This document shows positions 32,111 to 46,806 of a stretch of 64,000 nt of DNA, in pieces; positions within the stretch are counted from its first letter, which is position 1; the number at the start of each line of letters is the position of its first letter. A program made the position numbers and the translations under genes. The stretch is from NCBI GenBank assembly GCA_945873105.1, contig CAMCBW010000027.1, positions 1 through 64,000 on the forward strand, written 5' to 3'. This DNA comes from Tangfeifania diversioriginum (GTDB lineage: Bacteria; Bacteroidota; Bacteroidia; Bacteroidales; Prolixibacteraceae). Under the pieces are notes generated by a model, which had not been told where the DNA came from, did not search any database, and was given only the letters and a program-made list of their open reading frames with translations.

Positions 32111-32842
32111 TTATTTCAAAAACTTCTCCCTCCGCTGCAGATTGGTCAATCCGCCCAGCAGGAAGACGATGCTTCCAATGCTCAGGAAGATCCGGTTCTT
32201 CTGGGAGATCTGCGCCCAAACCATCTCATTCATACGGTTGGGGATGTCGTAAGGGTTGTGGAAGATGTTCCACTGGGTTCGGTCCAAAACTTCACCCATG
32301 AAGAGCAAGGCAACGCCGATGATGATCATCACCACAGCCGTTCCGTTGCCGTTCTTTACCATGGTCGAGACCAGGAAGGAGAGACAGCCCAGGAAGAAGA
32401 CCGGAAACATCAGTTGAAACGACATGTCAAAAACAGGGTAGGGGATGAGGGCAAAATAACCTATCCAGCAAAAGACATAGAGGATTGCCCAGGTGAGCAG
32501 GAAAATCATAAACAACCTGATCAGCCAGATCTTGTAACGGTAATCCGGTATCCCAAAGAGTATCTCAAGGATCCTGGAGTCTGCATCGTTCTGAATTCCG
32601 AACACGGTGGGGTAGAAGATCAGCAATATACCCGGAACAAATAGGATATAATAGACGTGTGATGAGTTGAAGGCAGGTGTATTGAAGACAAGGTTAATTG
32701 ACAACAATAGGTAGAAAACCAGAGAGGCGAGTACAAACCATACAAACCGACCAGCAAAGATGATCTTGAGGTTGTATTTTGCCATCTTCAGCACCAAATC
32801 TGTTCTATTCTTTAATTTACTCTTCCAAATTGCGTTATCCAT
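32111..32842 (-). CDS. ABC-2-type transporter permease
   Basis: 243 aa with about 6 hydrophobic segments; directly downstream of the ATPase-containing fusion gene. Confidence 0.8.
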   Translation of the reverse strand: MDNAIWKSKLKNRTDLVLKMAKYNLKIIFAGRFVWFVLASLVFYLLLSINLVFNTPAFNSSHVYYILFVPGILLIFYPTVFGIQNDADSRILEILFGIPDYRYKIWLIRLFMIFLLTWAILYVFCWIGYFALIPYPVFDMSFQLMFPVFFLGCLSFLVSTMVKNGNGTAVVMIIIGVALLFMGEVLDRTQWNIFHNPYDIPNRMNEMVWAQISQKNRIFLSIGSIVFLLGGLTNLQRREKFLK

Positions 32843-32880: not shown

Positions 32881-32978
32881 GTTAGGAGTAGATAGTTATG
32901 AGTGATGAGTTATGAGTTATAACGCTCTTATCAAGATCGCAGCTATAATCCATAACTCATAACTCCTAACTCATAACT
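32881..32978. repeat. Inverted heptamer arrays (GAGTTAT)n / (ATAACTC)n overlapping the stop of the RND::ABC gene
   Basis: Arms ~32895-32920 and ~32945-32977; 7-bp period. Confidence 0.85.
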
Positions 32979-35900
32979 TCTTTTTAAATCCTTTGAGTAT
33001 GCACAAATAGGCCTCCTCCAGAACTGGTTTTACGATCTCCGCATCTTCCGCAGGTTTTTCGGCCGACAGGAAGCGTACCTTGATCATCTCTCCGTCGCGC
33101 ATGTGGTGAATCACCCTTTCCTTCATCGGGAAGGCATCAAATTCCCTTGCGGGGATACTGAATTGCCATACAAATCCCTCTGCCAGCTTCACCATGTCGT
33201 TCGGATGACCGGTATAGCACAACTCACCACGGTTAACTACTGCTACCTGGTTACAGGAGCTCGAAATATCCTCGATGATGTGGGTGGAGAAGATTACGAT
33301 TCGCTCACGGCTTAGCTCCACCAAAAGGTTCCTGAAGCGGATTCTTTCGCGGGGATCCAATCCTGCAGTTGGTTCGTCAACCACGAGAATCCGGGGCAAA
33401 TGGAGCAGAATCTGGGCGATACCCATCCGCTGTTTCATACCTCCTGAAAATCCGCCGATCTTTTCATCCTTTCGGTCCCAAAGATGCACGGAACTAAGCA
33501 CATATTCAATCCGCTTGTCGCGTGTAGGTCCATCGGTCAATCCCTTGAGGATGGCCTGGTAATCCAGGAACTCATAGGCCGACATGTTTTCGTAGGTACC
33601 GAACTCCTGGGGCAAGTAGCCAATGAGTCCCTGCAGCTCTTCGCGTTTCTCCTGGGTATCGATGCCATTGATCCAGACTTTTCCATAACTCTGCTCATAA
33701 ATACCGCAGATTACACGCATCATGGTCGATTTTCCTGCCCCATTGGGCCCCAGCAATCCAATCATTCCGGTATTGATCTCCAGTGAAACACCCTTGAGTG
33801 CCTTGAATGGATCCCTTTTGCGTCCAAGTACAGGCATCTGTTCCACCAATTTGTAGAACACTCTCCTCAATCCGGCAAAACGGCCTTTCAACCTTTCAAT
33901 GTTGACTTTTTCCTCGTAAAGCCTGTCTGCTGTTGTTTTAACGGCGAGTGCAAAATACCAGAGTGCACCAACTACGGCTACTGAAAGCACTTTTTCCCAT
34001 TTGAAATAAAAGAAAACTAGCACCAACAGGGGCATGGCCCAATACAAGACCTGATAACCCACCCCAGACAACTTACTCATCCATTTTTTGTTCTCCTTCT
34101 CAGCCCGGTGATCGAGATATTCTGAAACGGGTCCCCACATGGCCAGTACCATCAGGTACGTTAGTAGAGCAAATATCAGGGCATACAAGCTATTGACAAG
34201 GTAGAAAAAGGTGAAGTAGACCATAAACCCAAGCAATGGTAATTGCCAGATATACAGGTCGAAGTCACGGATGGTGCGGTAATATTTTAGTTGGCCTGCG
34301 CGTTCGCGGATGTTGCGGTTCCCCTTCCATTCACGGGCAAAACGACTTCCCCAATCGTAGATCTTTACCAGATTTTCAATCTTGATGGTGATCTGTTTCT
34401 CCGGATCGATCACCGTTTCGGTGGCTTTGCGCAAACTGTTCATGATAAACCAGGTGGTACCCGGGATAACAATGATCAGCGCAACCATGTCGAGCATTTG
34501 CCAAAGCAAGGTATCTACACGCGTATAAATAAACACGATGCCAGCTATAAACAGCGCAAATTGGCCAATTTTCAATTTCCAGTTCAGATCTCTCATCCAT
34601 TGGATGGAAGTTTCAAGTCCAGAATAGAAAGTTGGTATAAACACCAGTGTCAGAAGCGTACTCAAGCTCAATCCGCCAATTACGGTAATGGCAAACGGAG
34701 CTCCGATGGCACCCACATATTCGTTGTCACCCATGGCCAATGGCAGCATGGCTGCGATGGTGGCTATGGCAGTGATCAGGATGGGCCGGAGTCTTGACAT
34801 CCCTGCCATGACCAGTGCACGATTTTTTCGGTAACCACGCTTCCTCAGAATCTGGGTATAATCAATCAGGATGATTCCGTTGTTCACCACCACACCGATC
34901 AGGATTAAAAATCCGATCATGGTATTGGCATTCAACAATGAATTGTTGCTGAAGATCAGGGCAAGGAAGGAACCAATGGCAGCCAGCGGTATGCTGAACA
35001 TCAGCACGAATGGGGTTGAAATTGATTCAAATACAGACGCCATGATCATGAAGATCAGGATGAAAGCCGCCAGGATCAGGAATTTGAAATCTGCCAGGGT
35101 ATCCTCTTCGTGGATCACCTCAATGGCAATCCCAGAAGGCATGTTGTAACTCCCAACGATATTGTCGACCTCCGCACGGTAGGATTCGAGCAGCTCTTTG
35201 GAATCCTGGGCCGCATCTACGAAACGGAAAGTAACCTCAATCTGCTTCTCCTGGTTTACCCTGGTGATACTGGCGTAACCCGACGAGAGCACCACATCGC
35301 TAATGGTTTGCAACTCATGCAATCCACCTTTGGTATCGGCAATTGGGAGTGTTTTCAGGTCGAAACTGGTTCTGCTCTTTTTGGATTCCTCCTCTGTCTC
35401 TCCCTTCTTGGGCATCTCTTTAATGGTAATATCGTATTGCTCGTTGCCCTGTTTGAAAGGTATATTGGTATTGATCTCCTTGCTGAAGGAGTTCAGTTCG
35501 CTGGAAACACTGGCAAGGGATACATCATAGGCATTCATCGTCAATGGATGAAACCGCAGGTGTACCTCGGGCCGGTTGTTGGTAAAGCTCACCCGTACAT
35601 TGTTCATGGATTCGAGGTTCTCCAAAAAGAATTGCAAGTCAGAGGCGACATTCTTCATCACCTCGAAATCCTCGCCTTTGATCAGGATGCGCTCCTGGTT
35701 GGATCCGACCCCCATCATCGACATGAAATTTCCTGCACCCGAGCCACCAACGCCCATGCTTGCACTGCTTGAACCGGTCGTAGAGGAGGCATCATTGATA
35801 TCGATGGTCCCACCCGGTACATCCCTCATCTTGTTGGTAACGTCTTCGCGAATCTGGGCGATGGAACGCTTTTTGATCTCCTGGTAGTCCTCCTTCAGTT

Positions 35901-40845: not shown

Positions 40846-41901
40846 CTATTTGATAATCTTAACTTTAGAGTCATCCCTAAGGGTTTCATAACCTTTGACA
40901 ACCAATCGTTGGTTGGCTTTCAGGCCCTCGATGACTTCAACCGATTTTTCATTCTCCAAACCGGTAGTAATGGTTCTGCGCCTTGCTGCTCCACCTTCAA
41001 CTACATATACAGTCTTGCCTCTTGCGCCTGCAACGATGATCTCCTTTGGAATCACAACGGCTGTATCTTTTCTGGCAATTTCAATGTCTGCTTTGACAAA
41101 CATACCCGGACGAAGCAATAGTTCAGCATTGTTGATGGTCATTTTGCCCTTGAAGGTACGTGTTTCCGTACTAATCACCGGAGAAAGCTCGCTGATTTGG
41201 GCCTTCAGGGTATCGTTGGGAAGGGTATAGTTGGTAATATTGACCTCTTGGCCCAATTTAATGGTGGTCAGGTACTTTTCAGGCAGGTTGACATCCATCA
41301 CCAATTTGCTGTAATCCATCAGGGTGACCACGTTGGTGCCAGAATTGATTCTGGTACCATTGGTGATCATGGGAATGTCCACGATGATGGCGCGAAACGG
41401 TGCTTTTACCTCGGTTTTCTGTTGCTGAATCTTTGCATCTTCAAAATTGGTCTTGGCATTGGCCAGGGCAACTTCCGCATTTTTCAATTCCCGGTAGGTG
41501 ACGCCTCCCTTTTCATAGAGCGATTTTTGCTTCTCATCCTCCAGACCGGCAATCTCGAAATTCAATTTCTTGGTCTCAAAGGAGATATTGTTCACATATT
41601 CAGGATTTTCCATTTTAACAATGACTTGTCCTTTCTCTACCTGATCTCCAAGTTTGAACTCCCGTCCGGTTTTTGGATTGATAGCGAGGTTGTAGCTGCC
41701 GGGCATTTCAGTGGTTAATACTGCCTGACTGGCTGCATTAGCTGTTCCGGTGCTGTTGATGTATTGCACGATGGGGCCTTTTTTCACATCGATAACAGAT
41801 ACGGGCACTTCGATGCTGTTTTGATTCTGACTTTGTTGGTTGTTGCAAGCAGCCAAAACTGGAACGATAAGGAGAGCTCTCCACAATTTATTGATTTTCA
41901 T
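40846..41901 (-). CDS. RND periplasmic adaptor (membrane fusion protein), lipoprotein
   Basis: 351 aa; lipobox VLAACNN; biotinyl-lipoyl and HlyD-like segments (EKGQVIVKMENPEY, VKAPFRAIIVDI, VYVVEGGAARRRTITTGL). Confidence 0.93.
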   Translation of the reverse strand: MKINKLWRALLIVPVLAACNNQQSQNQNSIEVPVSVIDVKKGPIVQYINSTGTANAASQAVLTTEMPGSYNLAINPKTGREFKLGDQVEKGQVIVKMENPEYVNNISFETKKLNFEIAGLEDEKQKSLYEKGGVTYRELKNAEVALANAKTNFEDAKIQQQKTEVKAPFRAIIVDIPMITNGTRINSGTNVVTLMDYSKLVMDVNLPEKYLTTIKLGQEVNITNYTLPNDTLKAQISELSPVISTETRTFKGKMTINNAELLLRPGMFVKADIEIARKDTAVVIPKEIIVAGARGKTVYVVEGGAARRRTITTGLENEKSVEVIEGLKANQRLVVKGYETLRDDSKVKIIK

Positions 41902-41923: not shown

Positions 41924-43417
41924 TTATTTATTGTTTTCAGAAGATTTCAGATAGGTTTCCGGGATGACCGGTTGATTGGTGGTAAAATCGTAAAGGGACT
42001 GAATTTTGAGGTTGAGCAATTCCAATTTGTAATTGATCAGCGCTTGTGCATACGACATTTTTTTGTCGGAAAGCTGTACCTGGAAAAGGTTTAGGTCCAT
42101 ACTGGTCAAGTCTCCGTTTTTGAAACGCTCCAGGTTGATGTCGTAGGTCAACTGGGAGTTGGTTTGGTTTTTCATGGCGATGGATATCTGTGCCTGAAGA
42201 TTGCTCAAGCTTCTGATCACCTGCCTGATATCGAGTTTGATCTGTGTATTCTGGTTGCTGTAGCTTAACTTCTGTGAGTTGATTACAGCCTGCTGCGACC
42301 TGATTTGCGCAGCACGCTGACCCCAGTCAAAGATGGGGATGTTGAAAGCAAGACTGACCTTCGGACTCTTGGTGGGTTTGTCATAGATTTGACTCAGGGT
42401 CGGATCATCCCCGGATACCCCGACTGAGAGGGCCATGTCACCCCTGAATTCATTCATGGATTTCACCTGGATCAGGGTGAGCTGGGCATCTTCGATGTTG
42501 ATCTCGCGCTGACGAAGCTCCATTCTGCTGGCAAGTCCGTGCTCGATCGCTTTTTTACTGTCTACTACCACCGGGGTTACCTGTACATCAGTCATAACAG
42601 CAATCTCTTCGAAAATATCCATACCGATGTATTGCTTGAATTGGTCTTTGGCATTTTCGAGGGAAACCCTGGCAGAAGCCATGCTGGATTTGGCAGTTTC
42701 AAGGTTCACCTCAGCCTGGAAGAGCTGCTCTTTGGCGGCAAGACCTGCATCCACCTTATTTTTGATGATCTCGTAACTCTTTTGGGTATTCAAATTCTCT
42801 TCTTCACTGATTGTAAGCCTCATCTGGGCGATGTAGACATTGTAAAAGAACTGGGAAACATTCTTTTCAAGCGCCAGACGCTGGATGGCATAACTCAACA
42901 TCGCATTTTCGTTGTCTAGCTCCAACCCTTTGATGGTCTGTTTGGTCCGGTTGTAGGTAAACAAGGGTTGTGTCAGACTCAGGTAGAGGTTGTTGTAAAA
43001 TGCCTTGTTGGAGTTGGTAACATTGCTCACCTCTGAAGTGTTCGACTGCCACCCGAAGGTGTTGATCAGTGAAATCTTTCCGTCAGTTGGCAGGAATGGC
43101 TGGTCTACCCGGAAGGTTCCGGAAGAGTTGATGACCTCATTGGTAAACCATTGAGAAGTACGGCTGTCAAATTTCCGGCTGTTGCTGTAGTCGATCGGAT
43201 TGACATTCAAGGCAAACTTCGATTTCAAGGCTGCACGCTGGGCATTGAGCGATTCAGTGGTACGCTCGAGGTTGAGTATTGAACTTTGAATACTCGGGCT
43301 GTTAACCACTGCAATCTCCATCGCCTTTTCCAGCGTCAGAATGGTCTGTGCTTCCGATCCCAATTGCATAAACAGGAGTAAGCCTGTCAAAGAGAGAATA
43401 GTTGTTATTTTTTTCAT
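41924..43417 (-). CDS. TolC-family outer membrane efflux protein
   Basis: 497 aa with signal peptide; long coiled-coil repeats (LTLEKAMEIAVVNSPSIQ, YDINLERFKNGDLTSMDLNLFQVQLSDKKMSYAQALINYKLELLNL). Confidence 0.93.
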   Translation of the reverse strand: MKKITTILSLTGLLLFMQLGSEAQTILTLEKAMEIAVVNSPSIQSSILNLERTTESLNAQRAALKSKFALNVNPIDYSNSRKFDSRTSQWFTNEVINSSGTFRVDQPFLPTDGKISLINTFGWQSNTSEVSNVTNSNKAFYNNLYLSLTQPLFTYNRTKQTIKGLELDNENAMLSYAIQRLALEKNVSQFFYNVYIAQMRLTISEEENLNTQKSYEIIKNKVDAGLAAKEQLFQAEVNLETAKSSMASARVSLENAKDQFKQYIGMDIFEEIAVMTDVQVTPVVVDSKKAIEHGLASRMELRQREINIEDAQLTLIQVKSMNEFRGDMALSVGVSGDDPTLSQIYDKPTKSPKVSLAFNIPIFDWGQRAAQIRSQQAVINSQKLSYSNQNTQIKLDIRQVIRSLSNLQAQISIAMKNQTNSQLTYDINLERFKNGDLTSMDLNLFQVQLSDKKMSYAQALINYKLELLNLKIQSLYDFTTNQPVIPETYLKSSENNK

Positions 43418-43434
43418 TTTTATTAATAATGGAA

Positions 43435-46400
43435 TTATTTTTCTTTGATTAATTTGATGGCATCCGCATAAATTGACCTTGCTTTTGTATTGTTTGTCAA
43501 TTCGATTCTGGCTGAATCACCAGAGAAGTGGTAACTTCCCATCTCAACCCAGGTACTCTGTCTGTTGTCCGGTTGTAACACAGGATGATCTGTTCCATCA
43601 TCATGGATAACGTTGTAGTTGTAGTTCTCTTCAGGTTGATTGTTGTTGTCTCGGCCCCACCCAGACTGAATTTTTGGAATGTAGGCATACACCTTGTAGT
43701 AGCCACCCTCTTTAAGTGGAACGCTCCAGATTGCCTTTCTTTCTCCGGTACCCCCTTTACAATAATAGGCAGAGCGTATCTGTTTTCCATAGAACTGCTC
43801 ATTGGTAATAAGGGTCCACTCAACGGATGGATTCCACATGTTCATCCCTTTGTATTTGAAATCATCTTCCTGCACCTCCTTGGTGAAAATCTTCTTGATA
43901 AAGCTTTTTGATACAGGTTGCTCCATTCTGAAACCCTTGTCTTCTGTATCCATGATGATCTCATTTAACTCTGCCCCTTCGGTATAGGGAATTATTTCTT
44001 CCATGTCAGATCCTTCGCCCTTTGGATCAATATCTATCTTTTCAAAACGCTGAGACATGGTGGAGGGAAGATTGTGCGAAGCATAGGTATTAATGGTCAT
44101 CGACCGTGGATCCCTGTTCAACAGGAAGGTCAGCCGTTTGGATTGTTTGGCATCAATGACCACTGTTTTCTCAATGTTGTCATCCGAACTGCTTCCGCCC
44201 ATCATCATCCTTCGTCCGCCACCACCACCTCCAAAGCCGCCAATCCTGAAGGTGACCGTGATGGCACCTGATATCTCCTCCGTATTGGTGAGAACAAAGG
44301 AGACAACAGTCTTGACCTGGTCGTCTTTCTGTATTTTGAAGGCTTTTGTATCCACAACGATGTAACCAGGAAGTGCCTGTGAAGTATACCATTTGGGCAA
44401 ATACTGATCCAAATCCAACTGGAATTTGTCCCTCATCTCGGTATTCAGCTCATCGACCTGAATGGTTCTGAATTTGCGCTCTTCCAGGAAGCCTCTGATA
44501 AAGTCATCAAATTTGTCGGGTCCAACAGCCCCTTTCATCAAGGCAAACAGGAATCCGCTTTTGGTCTGGATCACATTGTTGAGTACATCCGCATCCTCCT
44601 GTTTCTCGAGGATGTCGGCAAATGATTTGCTCTGCAAGGCAATGTTTCCCTTTTCGTCTCCGGAGAGCCCCATCATGTTGCGCATGAAATTGTTGCCGCT
44701 TTCGGTGGCACTTCTGGAAAGGTAGGACTCGACCACCCTGTTGGTGATGGGATAGGCGGGTGAGGAGATGTAGTTGATGTAATTGTAATAGTTGGGAAAG
44801 ATGAAATAAGGATTCAGTACGTCCGCAGCAAAATTCATGTTCGGTCCGCCTCCGCCTATTCTGATCCCGCTGAAATTCATTTGGTTAACCTTGCTGTTGA
44901 GAAAGGTCTCATTGACAAAACGCTTCAGGTAATTTGCCTCTGTTTCGCGGGGAGAGACAGTCTCGTTGCGTTCGTTGGCATTACGTGTCGCAAACCTTTT
45001 GGTGGCTGCAAAATTTGCCCCAGAAAGTTTAAAGCCTCCTTCCGGAAGGTAAACTGTCTCTGGCTGAACCTGTTCACCAGCACTGCTCCAGGCATGGTTG
45101 AAGGAGCAAAACTGTGCAGGAATCTCGACCAATTGCAACCTGGCATAGGGATATTGGCGGCGGATTTTGATCTCCCAGGTTTTCTTCAGGTCCCTGACAA
45201 CCGGCACGATCGAATCACCCAAAGTTTTAAAATATTGGTCAAATGTGTTGTGGTTTTTAAAGAAACTCAGTGAGTATTCCACATTGTCTACATTAACGGA
45301 ACGGGTTTGGTAGTTTCCAACCACCAGGGAGATTTGTGTCAACGGGAGTTCCGGCACAAAGAGGGTAGTACCGGTCTCTTCAGTCTTTTTGCCTTGTGAA
45401 AAAGCTTTGAGACTTTTGTCAGCTTTGACACTCAGTCGGTAGTTCGAAAATTGCGTTGCAAGCCAGTTCAGACCTTTGGAGGAATAACTCACCCCAGCAA
45501 CCGGATACCATTTCGTCTCTGGCGTTAGCAACAAATAGTCAGGAGTAAGGAAGGCATGCTTCTTATCGGTCAAACCGGCACCACTGTTTTTCCATTTCTC
45601 AAGTTGAAGAGCTGTCTGATCCAGGTAACAAAATGACTCATCAATGGTTCCCTTGTACTGAACGCTGATTTTCATTGAATCGCCGGGCTGCATCGGTTGA
45701 CCTGGCTTGATCTTTATCAATTGAAGCTCCCTGGTGAAATTTGCCCCGGAGATCTTTTCTACATCAAGTCCCGGATTCAAGGTAAGCACAAACTCACTGA
45801 GAGGCTCCTTGTTCGTGTTTTTTAGCGTTAAAGTGGCAGTTGCTGCTATCTGCTTACCCAGGTGTTCGAGGTCAATTTCATAGGATTGCACCTGGACAAC
45901 TTTTAATCCGGCATACTTGTCATTGAGTGCTACCATCTCCGTACGATGGCTCTCTTCAGAAGTGATGCCCTTGATGTATATGAACCCCAGGACAAAACCG
46001 GTGCTCAGAAAGAGGACCGCAAATACGATGACAACCTCCCTGACAAACTTGGATTGAGACAATCTTTTTAGCAGGAGAATGGTCAGACAGATGAATCCGA
46101 GTCCGAGGAAGAAATAGATTCCACGGTGGATTAGGATGTCCCTGAGTGAGCCAAAACCAACCATTTCCGACCAGCTCATCGGCAGCTTGAAAGACATGTA
46201 GTCGAAAATATTGTGAAATTTGTTCTGCAGGTAGAAGATGGTGGCAGCAATGTATCCCAACAAAACCAGAAATGTAACAGCTTGGTTCTTAATGACCGAC
46301 ATCAGGAAGAACGAAAAGCCCATGATGAAGATCAGGGTCGGAATGCTTATTAGCAGGAAATAGTAGATATAGGGTAAAAAGACAAACCGGGTAAAAGGAG

Positions 46401-46806
46401 AGGTGAAATTGAAAATCGCCACCATACCGAGGGCGATGGCGTTCAGGATTACAAAAACCCAGATATTTCCGAGTGTCTTGCCAATGACATAGTCGGCATT
46501 GGTGATGGAGCGCATGTAGACCACCTCGGTGGTATCCAGCTTCTTGTCCTGTTTTAAAAATTCGGAGGCCAGGAAAACCGCGATGACCGCCTGGGCCAGG
46601 TTGATGATGTAAAGGTTGGTAAAAGGGATCATAGAGGGAAGTGCGATCATATCCCCATTGGGAAAACCAACACCGGTCTGGGTGGCAAAATTGTAAAAGA
46701 AGACGAAGACCAGGGATAATATGGAGAAAATACGAAAGAACCAGCTTCTGAGCAGGGTTTTCGATTCGTATTTGGCTACGGCTATAATGTTGTGAATTGC
46801 TCTCAT
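43435..46806 (-). CDS. ABC-2 permease fused to an M1-aminopeptidase-like (no HEXXH) periplasmic region and a golvesin-like C-terminal domain
   Basis: 1123 aa; N-terminal multi-TM ABC-2 region, large soluble middle region with no HEXXH found, Gly-rich GGFGGGGGGRRMMMGG, C-terminus GGYYKVYAYIPK...YNVIHDDGT...TWVEMGSYHFSGDSARIELTNNTKARSIYADAIKLI. Confidence 0.8.
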   Translation of the reverse strand: MRAIHNIIAVAKYESKTLLRSWFFRIFSILSLVFVFFYNFATQTGVGFPNGDMIALPSMIPFTNLYIINLAQAVIAVFLASEFLKQDKKLDTTEVVYMRSITNADYVIGKTLGNIWVFVILNAIALGMVAIFNFTSPFTRFVFLPYIYYFLLISIPTLIFIMGFSFFLMSVIKNQAVTFLVLLGYIAATIFYLQNKFHNIFDYMSFKLPMSWSEMVGFGSLRDILIHRGIYFFLGLGFICLTILLLKRLSQSKFVREVVIVFAVLFLSTGFVLGFIYIKGITSEESHRTEMVALNDKYAGLKVVQVQSYEIDLEHLGKQIAATATLTLKNTNKEPLSEFVLTLNPGLDVEKISGANFTRELQLIKIKPGQPMQPGDSMKISVQYKGTIDESFCYLDQTALQLEKWKNSGAGLTDKKHAFLTPDYLLLTPETKWYPVAGVSYSSKGLNWLATQFSNYRLSVKADKSLKAFSQGKKTEETGTTLFVPELPLTQISLVVGNYQTRSVNVDNVEYSLSFFKNHNTFDQYFKTLGDSIVPVVRDLKKTWEIKIRRQYPYARLQLVEIPAQFCSFNHAWSSAGEQVQPETVYLPEGGFKLSGANFAATKRFATRNANERNETVSPRETEANYLKRFVNETFLNSKVNQMNFSGIRIGGGGPNMNFAADVLNPYFIFPNYYNYINYISSPAYPITNRVVESYLSRSATESGNNFMRNMMGLSGDEKGNIALQSKSFADILEKQEDADVLNNVIQTKSGFLFALMKGAVGPDKFDDFIRGFLEERKFRTIQVDELNTEMRDKFQLDLDQYLPKWYTSQALPGYIVVDTKAFKIQKDDQVKTVVSFVLTNTEEISGAITVTFRIGGFGGGGGGRRMMMGGSSSDDNIEKTVVIDAKQSKRLTFLLNRDPRSMTINTYASHNLPSTMSQRFEKIDIDPKGEGSDMEEIIPYTEGAELNEIIMDTEDKGFRMEQPVSKSFIKKIFTKEVQEDDFKYKGMNMWNPSVEWTLITNEQFYGKQIRSAYYCKGGTGERKAIWSVPLKEGGYYKVYAYIPKIQSGWGRDNNNQPEENYNYNVIHDDGTDHPVLQPDNRQSTWVEMGSYHFSGDSARIELTNNTKARSIYADAIKLIKEK

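Follow-up and report, generated by a model that had tools for sequence, protein, structure and literature searches.

Whether an ABC exporter and an RND pump can be parts of one machine, and what a peptidase-like domain would do in it, are questions raised by a single gene of Tangfeifania diversioriginum (Bacteroidales). ABC and RND pumps are usually viewed as alternative engines of tripartite systems. The gene lies in a stretch of 64,000 nucleotides of contig CAMCBW010000027.1 (hereafter the window), and a preliminary description made from the letters alone had read its product as an ABC-2 permease fused to a catalytically dead M1-like peptidase region, with a glycine-rich stretch and a golvesin-like C-terminus, serving as a periplasmic substrate or cell-wall sensor/adaptor. 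The span and the length of 1123 residues given there were exact, but the gene is read from the minus strand, the plus strand being full of stops.

Here we describe the anatomy of this protein, its linkage to six other genes and its near-complete co-occurrence with an RND protein fused to an ABC ATPase. We put forward, with evenly balanced confidence, that it is one half of the membrane part of a heterodimeric ABC-2 exporter, itself embedded in a larger ABC/RND/TolC machine. The features discussed are collected in Table 1.

Table 1. Features of the locus, with window coordinates; residue numbers are those of the encoded protein
Feature	Position	Strand	Evidence
Small, weakly ABC-2-like permease of 243 aa, encoded by the final cassette gene	32111..32842	-	
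Second RND permease with C-terminal ABC ATPase fusion, 1579 aa	32971..37710	-	
ABC ATPase core of the fusion, residues about 1302-1579, intact motifs	32974..33807	-	
Strand like strand 1 of ABC ATPases, fusion residues about 1109-1118	34357..34386	-	sequence, model
RND (AcrB-family) permease, 1024 aa	37729..40803	-	Pfam ACR_tran
HlyD/CusB-type membrane-fusion protein, lipobox-like Cys	40846..41901	-	Pfam HlyD_D23/HlyD_3
TolC-type outer-membrane factor	41924..43417	-	Pfam OEP
Large permease: ABC-2 domain, predicted dead M1 fold, golvesin C-terminus, 1123 aa	43435..46806	-	
Golvesin_C domain, residues 985-1121	43444..43854	-	Pfam, profile
Gly-rich loop between two strands, residues 856-876	44179..44241	-	model, conservation
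M1 aminopeptidase fold without active site, residues about 303-907	44086..45900	-	profile match, model, Foldseek, conservation
Glu693, approximately at the second zinc Glu position	44728..44730	-	profile alignment, conservation
Helix roughly in the place of the active relatives' HEXXH helix, residues 619-636	44899..44952	-	
ABC-2 membrane domain, residues 1-278	45973..46806	-	Pfam, hydropathy, model helices, loop charge
ABC ATPase, 298 aa	46832..47728	-	Pfam; motifs

Domain architecture of the large permease

In the order, 43 of the 295 genomes searched have homologues of the large permease, nearly all of these homologues full length and the best in each genome sharing 31-42% identity with it; 30 sequences were aligned. 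The ABC-2 assignment of the N-terminal region is borne out by this family: ABC2_membrane_2 is matched below threshold in the protein itself (22 bits, residues 9-192), and it is found by Pfam in 23 of the 30 homologues, at best with 5e-8. The gene is adjoined by that of an ABC ATPase, and the domain is homologous to that of ABC-2/M1 fusions. Seven transmembrane helices are predicted in it, with a positive-inside pattern, read from the loop charges of the sequence, that suggests an N-in/C-out topology. Since the positive loops fall on the predicted cytoplasmic side, the remainder of the protein would form an arm in the periplasm, in keeping with the location first suggested for it; the domains of the RND and membrane-fusion proteins are also periplasmic. 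After a short N-terminal helix and seven long membrane helices, the AF2 model (pLDDT 82.5, pTM 0.77) passes through a beta domain, then a helical one and a beta-sandwich, and closes with another beta domain at the C-terminus. A phmmer search with the whole protein against PDB sequences returned no useful match. Some genomes hold two copies of the gene (G291, G179, G087, G279 and G191), which in G291 are neighbours on contig C50; at locus L113 it is read as two pieces, probably through a frameshift or an assembly error.

The soluble segment that follows has the three parts of an M1 aminopeptidase: an N-terminal beta domain, a catalytic-type domain and a C-terminal beta-sandwich. Peptidase_M1 (PF01433) is matched in the protein below threshold only (17.7 bits, residues 729-806), and in 13 of the 30 homologues, at best with 1.3e-6. 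A comparison of the family profile with 26 ABC-2/M1 fusions that bear HEXXH aligned columns 4-831 (Prob 99.9, E 1.7e-33), and the best PDB matches of the model in Foldseek were IRAP/ERAP1 (E 1.2e-18, prob 1.0). The TM-scores against M1 aminopeptidases are low, 0.3-0.4, because of the extra domains in the query, and the M1 domains may also be oriented differently. From the profile match and Foldseek together, the protein is best described as an ABC-2/M1 fusion with one ABC-2 domain and no active site, to which a golvesin domain has been added.

Sequence comparison and modelling support the view that this M1 fold is catalytically dead, as originally proposed. HEXXH is absent from the protein itself, from 30/30 homologues in the order and from 80/80 further ones, the latter being the best 80 of 388 relatives found. 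The helix that takes approximately the place of the HEXXH helix has no conserved His in 111 homologues and, one hydrophobic position aside, shows little conservation. Glu693 is conserved in 96% of the 111 sequences, though both His are gone and this part of the alignment is loose; two further glutamates, Glu561 and Glu589, do not vary among the same sequences. An alternative zinc site was considered and rejected, no position of the catalytic-domain region 530-810 reaching 40% His or Cys in the 111 sequences; no intact alternative ligand set was found. The M1 fold, the golvesin end and the loss of zinc ligands all came out as the preliminary description had anticipated.

The C-terminus is a true Golvesin_C domain (PF25275), matched at residues 995-1120 with 56.2 bits against a cut-off of 31.6. 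The match recurs at E<=0.01 in 30/30 aligned homologues, and the domain is kept in 109 of 111; one of the two exceptions reaches a contig end (L104) and the other is the gene read in two pieces. Its mean conservation is 0.56, versus 0.48-0.50 for the M1 domains. The nearest solved relative of its profile is the C-terminus of a Paenibacillus xanthan lyase (6F2P, E 6.4e-9). By Pfam and profile, this lyase and the proteins Cbeg4 and Cbeg5 carry a domain of the same family (Golvesin_C / CBM6-CBM35-CBM36_like_2), and in Cbeg4 and Cbeg5 the same InterPro domain binds glycans on an array (PMC9166713). By analogy with these distant members, a glycan-type ligand is plausible here as well. In these proteins the domain sits on secreted enzymes or lectins, whereas here it sits on an inner-membrane transporter. 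The same genome has two further Golvesin_C copies (G000:C19:61027-61413 and C26:30662-30967; L002, L001), in proteins that, over the stretch read, show no ABC-2 part; one protein is beta-helix-like and lies beside a sulfatase-like gene, and the other is large.

The glycine-rich stretch is present as described, but it is no conserved feature, since across homologues the length of the loop ranges from 3 to 33 residues and its Gly content from 0 to 68%; the loop also has low AF2 confidence. This variability in length and composition rules it out as a functional motif, and we consider it a tolerant surface loop.

A conserved seven-gene cassette

The gene is the second of seven, in the order ABC ATPase, large permease, TolC-type channel, membrane-fusion protein, RND permease, RND-ABC fusion and 243-residue permease, with intergenic gaps of 17-128 bp. 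The ATPase, 25 bp upstream of the large permease gene, has intact Walker A and B motifs, signature and H-loop. The RND permease, the fusion protein and the outer-membrane factor are encoded in adjacent genes of conserved order and make up a tripartite efflux set; in both RND families one Asp of the usual TM4 pair of the putative proton relay is conserved (VDN/LDN). The last gene product is the least typical member: ABC2_membrane_3 is matched in 5 of 22 members of its family (best 3e-5), and its family profile matches the ABC-2/M1 fusions with E 1.5e-5; a direct profile comparison with the membrane domain of the large permease was not significant (Prob 1.2). We regard it as weakly ABC-2-like, and this identity is the weakest sequence link in the mechanism proposed below.

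Of the 20 loci examined in the order, the cassette is complete at 17, the other three being cut only by contig ends; outside the order, the seven genes are complete and in the same arrangement at 4/4 loci. Among the further GTDB genomes, the best 80 of 388 relatives, the order is kept in 80/80 as far as the contigs reach: the genes from the ATPase through the RND-ABC fusion are visible in 68, 12 are short, and the last gene lies beyond the 10-kb flank. The cassette is found across the FCB group, including MAGs labelled KSB1, Krumholzibacteriota, Chlorobiota and Melioribacteraceae, labels and binning that may err. No partial cassette was seen at the loci examined except at contig ends. The large permease occurs in 43/295 genomes of the order, the linker of the RND-ABC fusion in 40/295 and both in 38; the genomes with only one of them are mostly fragmented or incomplete assemblies. 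Across the phylum, 299 sampled genomes yielded the linker in four, the source genome among them, and all four have the large permease gene.

Around this constant core the neighbourhood varies. Downstream of the last gene nothing is conserved, and upstream the best family reaches 13/60 loci, with no constant regulator or histidine kinase. About 10/60 loci have a GntR-type regulator immediately upstream (L176, for instance), and an extra ABC ATPase gene is found upstream at 10 loci (L105, L107, L109, L115, L123, L145, L148, L155, L166 and L176). At L117 a gene for a bacteriocin-type ABC exporter containing a C39 peptidase lies about 1 kb upstream, and the same ABC cluster is upstream in 12/60 loci. 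A search for the Bacteroidota-type promoter pattern gave no site upstream of the cassette, and its counts in the 64-kb window were no better than chance. A role in anti-phage defence was considered and set aside: PADLOC matches were to generic ABC/AAA ATPases, with none for the large permease.

An ATPase fused to an RND subunit

The second RND protein is AcrB-like over residues 2-1030 and has a Pfam match to ABC ATPases at 1305-1449, with intact motifs. About six transmembrane segments lie between the RND part and the ATPase core. A stretch within this region, at about 1109-1118, is modelled as a strand and looks like the first one of ABC ATPases; a membrane insert of roughly 185 residues parts it from the remaining ATPase, so that the fused ATPase appears, from sequence and model, to be split by an insert of roughly four transmembrane segments. 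The PDB entries that match the model best are ABC ATPases; no known fold was assigned to the membrane linker, the convincing matches being those of the ATPase part. This fusion with its split ATPase is possibly more unusual than the large permease gene itself.

In a tree of the ATPases built without an outgroup, in which the deeper branching order is not settled, the stand-alone ATPases group in one well-supported clade and the fused ones in another, and several sub-pairs match between the two. Both clades are apart from the ATPases of the active M1 fusions, a partner ATPase having been recovered for 25/26 of those loci.

Proposed mechanism and alternatives

The cassette encodes, in linkage, two different ATPases and two different ABC-2-type permeases, the 243-residue one only weakly of that type. 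Together with its two different RND proteins, single fusion protein and single outer-membrane channel, these are the parts that a heteromeric RND tripartite pump joined to a heterodimeric ABC exporter would require. The assembly of the machine, its direction of transport, a glycan-type substrate and the hand-over of that substrate are our inference. In the reading we prefer, at even confidence, the stand-alone and the RND-fused ATPase would pair as the two motors of the exporter, and the large and the 243-residue permease would provide its two membrane halves. Powered by ATP hydrolysis, the exporter would carry a molecule of cell-envelope or glycan type across the inner membrane or out of it. 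In the periplasm this molecule would be held or oriented, without being cut, by the golvesin domain and the dead M1 cleft; the two RND proteins, the fusion protein and the TolC channel would then take it over for export. The covalent link between RND protein and ATPase would keep both engines in one complex. In a bolder version, to which we give somewhat less than even odds, the whole is a dual-energised conduit from the inner to the outer membrane, in which an ABC-2 heterodimer, an ATPase in an RND subunit and a dead M1/lectin receiver would couple ATP- and proton-driven transport. Such a system, if real, would be a new coupling of two energy sources, the ATPase of one engine being fused to the membrane subunit of the other, and a clear instance of a peptidase fold taken over to handle substrate.

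Rather unlikely, yet the strongest of the alternatives considered, are two separate pumps sharing one promoter: the stand-alone ATPase and the large permease would form an ABC-2 exporter, the RND genes a tripartite pump whose fused ATPase uses the 243-residue permease, and both would act on the same class of compounds with no joint complex. Each half does look complete, the large permease gene adjoins that of its own ATPase as in the active ABC-2/M1 fusions, and co-transcribed ABC and RND pumps could operate independently. Such independence sits poorly with the strict order and co-occurrence of the seven genes, partial only at contig ends, with an ATPase covalently attached to an RND subunit, and with a permease pair made up of a small and a large member, such as a heterodimer requires.

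The sensor/adaptor idea survives in part. A dead M1 fold does seem to have been reused, but a cell-wall sensor specifically finds no support, and constant membership in an ABC/RND/TolC cassette argues more for an exporter subunit that handles substrate than for a sensor acting on its own. In its fullest form, modelled on peptide-sensing ABC permeases, the M1 and golvesin domains would detect an envelope ligand such as a glycan or an antimicrobial peptide, signal through the ABC part, and so control the RND pump through gating or regulation. Lectin-type domains and enzyme folds without activity are well suited to binding a ligand, and the GntR-type regulator beside some loci would fit; the conserved partners are nevertheless all transport components and no regulator or histidine kinase is constant nearby, which makes this version improbable. 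A cryptic hydrolase, with catalysis kept through unusual ligands, is very improbable indeed: the conserved glutamates (561, 589 and 693) speak for it, but the family lacks HEXXH throughout, shows no His or Cys at the 40% level in region 530-810 and has left its catalytic helix unconserved.

Relation to known systems

MdtABC-TolC is a heteromeric RND pump built of two different RND proteins, a fusion protein and an outer-membrane factor, all of which it shares with the cassette. Unlike MdtABC-TolC, however, the cassette has an RND protein with an ABC ATPase at its C-terminus, one that a membrane insert apparently splits, as well as a second ATPase and two permeases of the ABC-2 type. The closest known counterparts of the large permease are the ABC permease/M1 aminopeptidase fusions of Bacteroidota (for instance L073, L076-L100), which have the same succession of ABC-2 and M1 fold, are homologous to it over about 830 residues and, as seen at L073, likewise have an ABC ATPase gene next door. 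They differ in carrying a second ABC-2 domain, in keeping HEXXH intact (26/26) and in ending with the M1 part, where the present family has one ABC-2 domain, a predicted dead M1 fold and a golvesin domain; the L073 fusion is 1056 residues long and has no RND or TolC genes beside it. MacAB-TolC resembles the cassette in joining an ABC exporter that has a large periplasmic part to a fusion protein and TolC, and in MacB the ATPase is fused to its own permease (PMC8277102). The cassette departs from MacAB-TolC in its ABC-2 subunits, its two RND proteins and its arm of dead M1 fold and golvesin domain.

The components are thus all of known kinds. Their combination, and any published description of an ABC-M1 or RND-ABC fusion, was not found in the literature searched, which excludes most subscription journals; a term search of the accessible text of a review of tripartite systems (PMC8277102) gave no mention of either fusion. 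The cassette is present in cultured, named strains of Prolixibacter, Mangrovibacterium, Sunxiuqinia and Maribellus, and is therefore testable.
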